42,090 nucleotides of DNA from contig JAQUZO010000005.1 of assembly GCA_028691285.1 (NCBI GenBank), positions 1 to 42,090 of the forward strand, read 5' to 3'. The notes under the pieces are model-generated. The model did no database searches and was not told the DNA's origin. It was given only the letters and a program-made list of their open reading frames with translations. Below are positions 14,370-16,405 of this stretch, piece by piece. Both the position numbers and the translations under genes were made by a program. How positions within the stretch are numbered: position 1 is the first letter of the stretch; every line of letters starts with the position of its first letter. The stretch is from Anaerovibrio sp. (GTDB taxonomy: Bacteria; Bacillota; Negativicutes; Selenomonadales; Selenomonadaceae).

Positions 14370-15398
14370 TCAGCCTTTCTGCAGAAATCTTACTTCTGCC
14401 GGCTCGCCGAATTTCACCTTGTCCTGCACCCCGGGGGAAATGGAAATCTTAATGACCAGCTTGCTGCTTTGCGGCAGCTCTCCGCCCTCCGTATTTGCCT
14501 GCCCGCCGTCTGCTTCCTGCGACGGCTCGACAATTTCCATCACCAGTCCTTCATATTTCACTCTGTCAATATAATAATCAGCAACCTGTCCCAATCGGAT
14601 ATTTTCCCGTTGTTCTTCCTCCAGACAGGCTTCTATCCACATATTGTCGGAATTTCCCACGCTGGCAACAGTCTGCCCTGCCTGTATCTCGCTTCCCTCT
14701 GCTATATCACCCACATAGACGGTTCCATCCACAGGGGCCGTAATCTCCGCAGCTGCGGCACTTCCCCTGGCGTTCTCCAGAGCAGCCTGAGCCTGCCTGA
14801 CCTGCAGCTCGGCCTTCTTGAGAACCTCGGGACTGGCTGGCTGCACCACAGTATCATAGGAAACCGCAGACTGAACAGGCGCGCTGGCTGCCGCCAGAGC
14901 CTGATAATCAGCTGCCGCTTCATCCCGTTTTACAGCACTTATCGCTCCCATTTCAAAAAGCTGATTCATGCGCTCCATACGGCTTCTGGCTCTTTCCACC
15001 TCGGCACTGGAAACACCCCCTGCACTGGTGGTGGCTGCCCGGGGAGTCCTGACGGTAACGCCCTTTTTGAGCTGCTCCAGATTGCGCTGAGACAGCTCTA
15101 CTGTCTGCTGCAGCTGTTTGAGCTGCTCCTCTGTCACATTTACCCTGATACGGGCAAGCACATCACCGGCCTTCACCTGATCTCCATCCTTGACGGCAAT
15201 CTCTGTCACAGTCCCAGCTGCCCGTGCCCTTACCGATACCATATTGCTGGAAACCCTGGCATCCCTGACTACAATATCACCGGTTCCGTACATGGCATAC
15301 CACACCACGCTGGCTGCTGCCACCGTAAGCACCAGCACCGACGGCAGCCCAAATTTGATCAGCCTTTTTACCTTGTCGCTAATATCTATCTCACGCAA
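14370..15398 (-). CDS. HlyD/EmrA-family periplasmic adaptor protein
   Basis: 342 aa; N-terminal TM anchor, VSVRARAAGTVTEIAVKDGDQVKAGDVLARI (biotinyl-lipoyl-like), coiled coil, ITAPVDGTVYVGDIAEGSEIQAGQTV. Confidence 0.9.
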   Translation of the reverse strand: MREIDISDKVKRLIKFGLPSVLVLTVAAASVVWYAMYGTGDIVVRDARVSSNMVSVRARAAGTVTEIAVKDGDQVKAGDVLARIRVNVTEEQLKQLQQTVELSQRNLEQLKKGVTVRTPRAATTSAGGVSSAEVERARSRMERMNQLFEMGAISAVKRDEAAADYQALAAASAPVQSAVSYDTVVQPASPEVLKKAELQVRQAQAALENARGSAAAAEITAPVDGTVYVGDIAEGSEIQAGQTVASVGNSDNMWIEACLEEEQRENIRLGQVADYYIDRVKYEGLVMEIVEPSQEADGGQANTEGGELPQSSKLVIKISISPGVQDKVKFGEPAEVRFLQKG

Positions 15399-15475
15399 AA
15401 TTTTCCCTCACAATCATCATGTATTACAAATGACAATTATATCCCTATAATATGAAAATTTCAAGAAAAAAGAAA

Positions 15476-15499
15476 ACGGCCAGCTCAAATGCCGGCCAT
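15476..15499 (-). terminator. Terminator of the secreted repeat protein gene
   Basis: Minus strand ATGGCCGGC-ATTTGA-GCTGGCCGT followed by TTTCTTTTTTC. Confidence 0.9.
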
Positions 15500-15550
15500 T
15501 TCCCCTGCCTGTCTGCGCAGCCCGGGCTGTACAGATACCAATATATTCAT

Positions 15551-16300
15551 TTACCTGACAGGACAGTTAGCTGCCGGGCCGCTGCCATCGCCTGGGCCAA
15601 AACCGGGACCGTAGCCTCCCTGTCCATGATGTCTGCCGTCATTCCAGCGGTTGTGATGCCGGCCATTTCCCGGAGGATTGCAGCCGGGAACAGCCTGCAG
15701 GACACTTTCCTCCACACCCAGCTCCCTGCCCACATCATACCAGCTGTTATTGAGCTTTTTCAGCGCCAGTACATCCCGGACATCCTTGTTGGCAGCCTTG
15801 GCAACAGCAGCAGCAGTTTCTACATCAAAGCCTCTGTAGCCCTCCTGCAAAAGCTGCAGTGCCTCATTTTCACTGATATTTCCCTGCTCGGCAATCCAGC
15901 CTGCCATAAAAGTGCACCTGTCTGCCCTGAGCATCTCCTGTGTCACGCCCAGTCCCTCTGCTACCTGCTCCCAGGTGTTGCTGTCAGACTTTGCCTGCAC
16001 CACTGTCTCAAAGGACTTCCCGCTCAGCTTGGCAATGTGAGCGGCGTAGCAGGCCTCGTGGAAACGACCGCCATTGTTGCAGTAGCTTACCACCTGGGCT
16101 GAGTCCACATTGCAGTCAGCTGCCAGCCTGGAGGCTGCAGTATTCAGATTGAATCTCGGCGGCATATTCCGGCCTGACGCAGCACCCGGAGCTGCAGGCT
16201 GATCTGCTGCCTGGGCAGAATCCAGCAGCAGGGCAGAGCCGGCAAAAACCATCACACCAGCTAAAATACCGGCAAGCGTTTTTTTGTTGAAATCTTTCAT
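15551..16300 (-). CDS. Secreted hypothetical protein with a duplicated helical repeat and His/Gly-rich C-terminus
   Basis: 249 aa from ATG at 16300 (AAGGAGATG RBS). Signal peptide MKDFNKKTLAGILAGVMVFAGSALLLDSAQA; two ~60-aa repeats ending NTWEQVAEGLGVTQEMLRA and NSWYDVGRELGVEESVLQA; tail GNGRHHNRWNDGRHHGQGGYGPGFGPGDG. Confidence 0.85.
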   Translation of the reverse strand: MKDFNKKTLAGILAGVMVFAGSALLLDSAQAADQPAAPGAASGRNMPPRFNLNTAASRLAADCNVDSAQVVSYCNNGGRFHEACYAAHIAKLSGKSFETVVQAKSDSNTWEQVAEGLGVTQEMLRADRCTFMAGWIAEQGNISENEALQLLQEGYRGFDVETAAAVAKAANKDVRDVLALKKLNNSWYDVGRELGVEESVLQAVPGCNPPGNGRHHNRWNDGRHHGQGGYGPGFGPGDGSGPAANCPVR

Positions 16301-16348: not shown

Positions 16349-16381
16349 ATTATAGGAAAACACCCTTAAAACCACCTTAAA
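16349..16381 (-). promoter_or_regulatory. Promoter with tandem OmpR/PmrA-like response-regulator box
   Basis: Minus strand TTTAAG-GTGGT-TTTAAG (16365-16381, 11-bp period), 10 nt, then TATAAT (16349-16354). Confidence 0.65.
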
Positions 16382-16405
16382 CCATTATTAAAAACAGATT
16401 AGAAT

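Follow-up and report, generated by a model that had tools for sequence, protein, structure and literature searches.

The window analysed here is a 42,090-nucleotide stretch of Anaerovibrio DNA in which the gene for a 249-aa exported protein is preceded by a consensus TATAAT hexamer without a −35 element, raising the question of what takes the place of the −35. The preliminary description had pointed to a direct repeat, TTTAAG-N5-TTTAAG, with an 11-bp period and 10 nt from TATAAT, and this pair is present exactly as described (16365-16381, minus strand). However, it is the promoter-proximal half of a longer array, since two more upstream boxes in the same register had been overlooked. Positions 16403 to 16349 of the minus strand read TCTAAT-CTGTT-TTTAAT-AATGG-TTTAAG-GTGGT-TTTAAG-GGTGTTTTCC-TATAAT and contain four YTAA boxes (16365-16403) with an exact 11-bp period (N5 between hexamers), or about one box per helical turn. 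The features of the promoter and its gene are as follows.

16398..16403, minus strand: box 1, TCTAAT, the distal box, in the same 11-bp register
16387..16392, minus strand: box 2, TTTAAT
16376..16381, minus strand: box 3, TTTAAG
16365..16370, minus strand: box 4, TTTAAG
16349..16354, minus strand: −10 hexamer TATAAT, 10 nt after box 4, without a −35 hexamer
15551..16300, minus strand: gene under this promoter, for an exported alpha-helical repeat protein of 249 aa (from its sequence and a structural model)

No −35 hexamer was found upstream of TATAAT at spacings of 15-19 nt, and the best candidate there matched TTGACA at 2/6 positions, in agreement with the earlier remark that no good −35 existed. 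The ATG start codon is at 16300 with an AAGGAG ribosome site 5′ of it. The array has two marks of an operator of the OmpR family, namely tandem half-sites (at least two) in the same orientation 10-11 bp apart, and a position overlapping or replacing the −35 element (N10 to TATAAT, −35 absent). Judging from the sequence, the array is most probably an operator that replaces the −35 and through which a response regulator of the OmpR/PhoB family activates the exported-protein gene.

We then asked how often such a pattern occurs. In the window, the two-box pattern with at most one mismatch was found twice versus 0.14 expected, and 0 of 100 shuffles gave two. The exact two-box pattern has one occurrence in the whole 1.67-Mb assembly, and searching for two boxes plus the −10 returned the same single exact match; therefore, the regulon is not visible from the Anaerovibrio genome alone. 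The pattern with at most one mismatch was not enriched across the assembly (11 places versus 24 for a reversed control), and thus the hexamer word alone is uninformative genome-wide. The genome-wide scan proposed in the preliminary description gave only this one site in the assembly of the window; in relatives, the array recurs before exported-protein genes.

Orthologues of the exported protein were found in 118 of 151 genomes of Selenomonadaceae. Their promoters were scored for three YTAA boxes and a −10 at fixed phase, with a register shift of one period permitted, and significance was set at p ≤ 0.02 against dinucleotide shuffles for 88 orthologous loci from 24 Selenomonadaceae genera. The array was present in 72 of the 88 promoters and in 18 of the 24 genera at this threshold, species not being independent samples. 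Relatives keep the YTAA core, the period of 11 bp, and the N10 spacer, and TATAMT is retained at equal spacing from the boxes. The exact word TTTAAG, including its final G, is not conserved among the orthologous promoters, where the boxes read approximately YYTAAW, NYTAAA, and NYTAAN. Among 58 distinct well-scoring promoters, YTAA lies 15, 26, and 37 nt before the −10 (the offsets of boxes 4, 3, and 2) in 42, 49, and 50 cases, respectively, and other offsets are rare, a profile that is descriptive and not a test because these promoters were selected on the same score. YTAA at the offset of box 1 occurs in only 4 of the 58, and it is frequent in array sites that are not orthologous. Over the 151 genomes, the three-box pattern with the correct spacer was found at 75 places in 60 genomes (this orthologue accounting for roughly half of the places), versus 11 places in 9 genomes for a phase control with one base added to the spacer. 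Within the Anaerovibrio genus, several members (L096-L101) keep two boxes only, 11 bp further from the −10 and with the phase unchanged.

The other array sites in relatives precede genes for exported proteins of several kinds.

L152-L154, L161, L218, downstream of an array: small, charged proteins whose tail resembles a glycine zipper
L155-L157, L168, L169, L222, downstream of an array: large repetitive exported proteins
L158-L160, downstream of an array: proline/lysine-rich proteins
L167, L219, downstream of an array: short His/Pro-rich proteins

A signal peptide was called in 22 of 28 callable genes behind these sites versus a background of 24% (binomial p ~1e-9, which overstates independence because several of the sites are orthologous to one another). 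The calls followed a crude rule, and the background was drawn from these loci as well, counting every gene preceded by a TATAMT-like hexamer. L212, L213, and L214 are doubtful start choices among the positives, and without them the count is 19 of 25. None of five representative downstream proteins had a match in Pfam, and no lipid A modification gene was among the downstream genes read. The preliminary description had made its proposal depend on conservation of the box in orthologous promoters and on enrichment before a coherent regulon; the first was observed at the 72 promoters above, and the second in relatives, where the enrichment is before exported-protein genes. A search of the literature on response-regulator repeats in Negativicutes did not yield a description of this regulon. 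Selenomonadaceae are rumen and gut bacteria with an outer membrane despite belonging to the Firmicutes, and the array, with its three or four YTAA boxes, period of 11 bp, and N10 to the −10, offers a sequence handle on a regulon in this family whose exported proteins are uncharacterised.

Some array-like sites were rejected. Those in A+T-rich genomes (g8, g1) had no exported product or no nearby gene and are probably due to chance or another signal, as are, on the same grounds, several g13 and g17 sites (L162-L166, L212-L217, L220, L221, L225). Four g13 genomes (L162-L165) have a conserved box-like array and TATAAT ahead of a leader, CGCCACAGTGCCGG...CCCCGCAG, resembling a cobalamin-type riboswitch; at these loci, the match to the boxes may be fortuitous. 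Unnamed membrane or small-protein genes of Selenomonas (genus g17; L212-L215) are preceded by conserved arrays of TTAAG type together with TATAAT or TAAAAT, and these arrays may be a second target class or sites of another regulator.

We propose that phosphorylated regulator dimers, arranged head to tail, would bind the tandem YTAA boxes with a half-site at each helical turn, and that two dimers would occupy the four boxes. The bound dimers would cover the missing −35 and recruit RNA polymerase to TATAAT, and cells would produce the exported helical-repeat protein while the cognate sensor kinase is switched on, presumably by a cell-envelope signal. In relatives, the same operator would drive a few further exported proteins. 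An operator of this type in place of the −35 was what the preliminary description had suggested, and the tandem boxes, the absent −35, and the conservation in relatives support it; activation, the sign that it assumed, is likely. Since the −35 hexamer is absent, the promoter should require an activator, which argues against the reading that the array is a repressor site where a response regulator or another tandem-binding protein blocks the promoter over the −35 region. The boxes do occupy the region that RNA polymerase would contact, and the streptococcal regulator CiaR represses one target, manLMN (PMC8317062), but the fixed N10 phase across 18 genera suits contact with polymerase better than simple occlusion, and we consider repression unlikely. 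A reading in which no cognate regulator exists, and the array is an A+T-rich repeat arisen by chance or a set of UP-like A+T tracts, is very improbable. The Anaerovibrio genome itself would agree with chance, as its one-mismatch pair is not above the reversed control. However, the exact period and phase are conserved in 18 genera under the shuffle test, the signal is lost with the control shifted by one base, and A+T tracts alone would not yield 11-bp YTAA words at fixed spacing.

If the array is an activator operator, its regulator would be encoded elsewhere, as had been supposed, and all five OmpR-family regulators in the Anaerovibrio genome are outside the window.

Contig 46: L211, OmpR-family regulator with a kinase, CiaR-like by reading only
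Contig 103: L207, OmpR-family regulator, member of a pair
Contig 150: L208, OmpR-family regulator
Contig 122: L209, PhoB-like, beside a polyphosphate-kinase-like gene
Contig 144: L210, KdpE, behind a KdpD-like kinase

Our leading, if tentative, candidate for the cognate regulator belongs to the CiaR-like pair on contig 46, and quite possibly the regulator is other than L211 or L207. The L211 regulator was found in 141 of the 151 genomes, and its recognition helix, SSNNIDSY[VM]K, is near-invariant in the 30 best loci. In three species of one genus (G027, G050, G065), only two small genes separate the orthologue from an L211-type pair upstream of it; this linkage, seen in one genus, could be chance (a rough estimate is 7%). 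A relative of L211 in the Pectinatus genus, 45% identical, has the helix SSNALDALIK, and the orthologue promoter there is without the array. No array was found upstream of the L211 regulator in 30 loci, and thus autoregulation is not visible. In genera g10, g14, g18, and g24, the L211 regulator is present and the array is absent at the orthologue, and in three draft genomes (G093 and G028 at the orthologue, G011 at another gene), arrays occur without a detectable L211 regulator. These three genomes have L207, which is present in 136 of the 151, and the operator might belong to this contig-103 type of regulator rather than to the contig-46 pair. We regard this as rather unlikely, since L207 was not found in G015 and G026, which both have good arrays, it is present in the closed genome G019, where the orthologue is without an array, and no linkage to the target gene was seen. 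Presence and absence over the 151 genomes did not separate L211 from L207. L208 was dropped because it is in only 48 of the 151 genomes and is not in the array-bearing G047, and KdpE (L210) and the PhoB-like L209 were set aside on gene neighbourhood alone.

By word and position, the closest known boxes are those of CiaR and PmrA, and CiaR is the closer of the two. The box of the Streptococcus CiaRH system is TTTAAG-N5-TTTAAG, revised to NTTAAG-N5-TTTAAG, upstream of the −10, and CiaR mostly activates (PMC3091779, PMC8317062). The final G is invariant in CiaR boxes (PMC3091779). The window has the identical word pair with N5, likewise directly upstream of the −10, but its host belongs to the Negativicutes and not to the streptococci, the Selenomonadaceae array has three to four boxes and not two, and the final G is not kept in Selenomonadaceae relatives. 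None of the 25 best NCBIfam matches was a CiaR model, the CiaR likeness of the contig-46 pair being by reading only. The PmrA/BasR box of Enterobacteriaceae, CTTAAG-N5-XTTAAT, has in common with the array the TTAA core, the tandem repeat of one turn, and the OmpR family (PMC3973317). Here the first half is TTTAAG and not CTTAAG, and an XTTAAT-like box, TTTAAT, is present upstream, not downstream, of TTTAAG. Neither L211 (162.6 bits) nor L207 (158.5 bits) reached the NCBIfam PmrA cut-off of 330 bits. With these scores, a G that is not conserved, and CiaR as the closer box, the link to PmrA/BasR or metal stress made in the preliminary description was not upheld. Since membership of neither the CiaR nor the PmrA class is established, we count the array, as far as its sequence indicates, as a new operator, with a new regulon, within the familiar OmpR-family kind. 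The Pho box of PhoB consists of TGTCAT-type tandem repeats that replace the −35. The array shares this geometry, and the word TGTCAT is shared by Sporomusaceae-type relatives, whose recognition helix DDRTVDATIKRLR presumably resembles that of PhoB, whereas the Selenomonadaceae word is YTAA and the PhoB-like L209 of the Anaerovibrio genome is a separate system.

Outside the family, in relatives of the Sporomusaceae type, the orthologue lies directly behind a regulator-kinase pair at nine loci: four in Pelosinus, one each in Propionispora and Lucifera, and three in Selenomonadales bins. The promoters of these loci all (9/9) read NGTCAT-N5-TGTCAT-N10-TATAMT, which is GTCA-N7-GTCA-N11-(−10), and the pair there differs from the Selenomonadaceae candidates. 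In Sporomusa, a regulator-kinase pair is directly downstream of the orthologue. Because the nine loci and Sporomusa have the gene beside such pairs, two-component control of the exported-protein gene seems to predate any one operator word or regulator. We suggest, with some reserve, that the exported protein might be a conserved accessory partner of its own two-component system across Selenomonadales, and that the regulator might have been exchanged between Sporomusaceae-type and Selenomonadaceae lineages. The word would then have switched between TGTCAT and YTAA, with the 6-N5-6-N10-minus 10 geometry fixed and other exported proteins under the YTAA array. If true, this would be a clean natural rewiring, with promoter words swapped within a frozen architecture, and the word switch with conserved geometry would open the regulator exchange to a direct test, Pelosinus versus Selenomonas. 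In Pectinatus (L344, L348), the orthologue promoters are without YTAA boxes and have TTTTG-type repeats about 11 bp apart, perhaps a third operator word.

The exported protein had no Pfam or NCBIfam family above cut-off. Weak Pfam matches to Cas9_a, Death, and HTH differed between members and were rejected as spurious helical similarity. In named genomes, a single-protein query found 0 relatives and an alignment query found 80. AlphaFold2 predicted a confident helical-repeat domain at about residues 50-210 (pLDDT of at least 90 for 149 residues), preceded by a signal peptide and a linker. In a fold search against solved structures, no match reached E ≤ 0.001, and designed alpha-toroids came closest. 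CpxP of CpxRA (PMC4160245) and DbfQ of DbfRS (PMC12714742) are accessory periplasmic proteins, and what they have in common with the protein here is that a small exported protein is beside, or controlled by, its two-component system. This linkage suggests, by analogy only, a similar accessory role, although no sequence or fold relation to CpxP or DbfQ was found and the protein here is a helical repeat without a known domain. The Anaerovibrio proteins (window and L013) carry additional cysteines (DCNVDSAQVVSYCNNGGRFHEAC) in place of the FGVDE...DFRDIGQAA of the other aligned genera, and these might form disulfides specific to the lineage or bind metal. The region 15398-15560, which separates the exported-protein gene from an HlyD-type gene (14370-15398), contains a hairpin-like stretch with T's after it (about 15465-15500) as well as a promoter, TTGAAA-N17-TATAAT, and thus the HlyD-type gene is probably a separate transcription unit.
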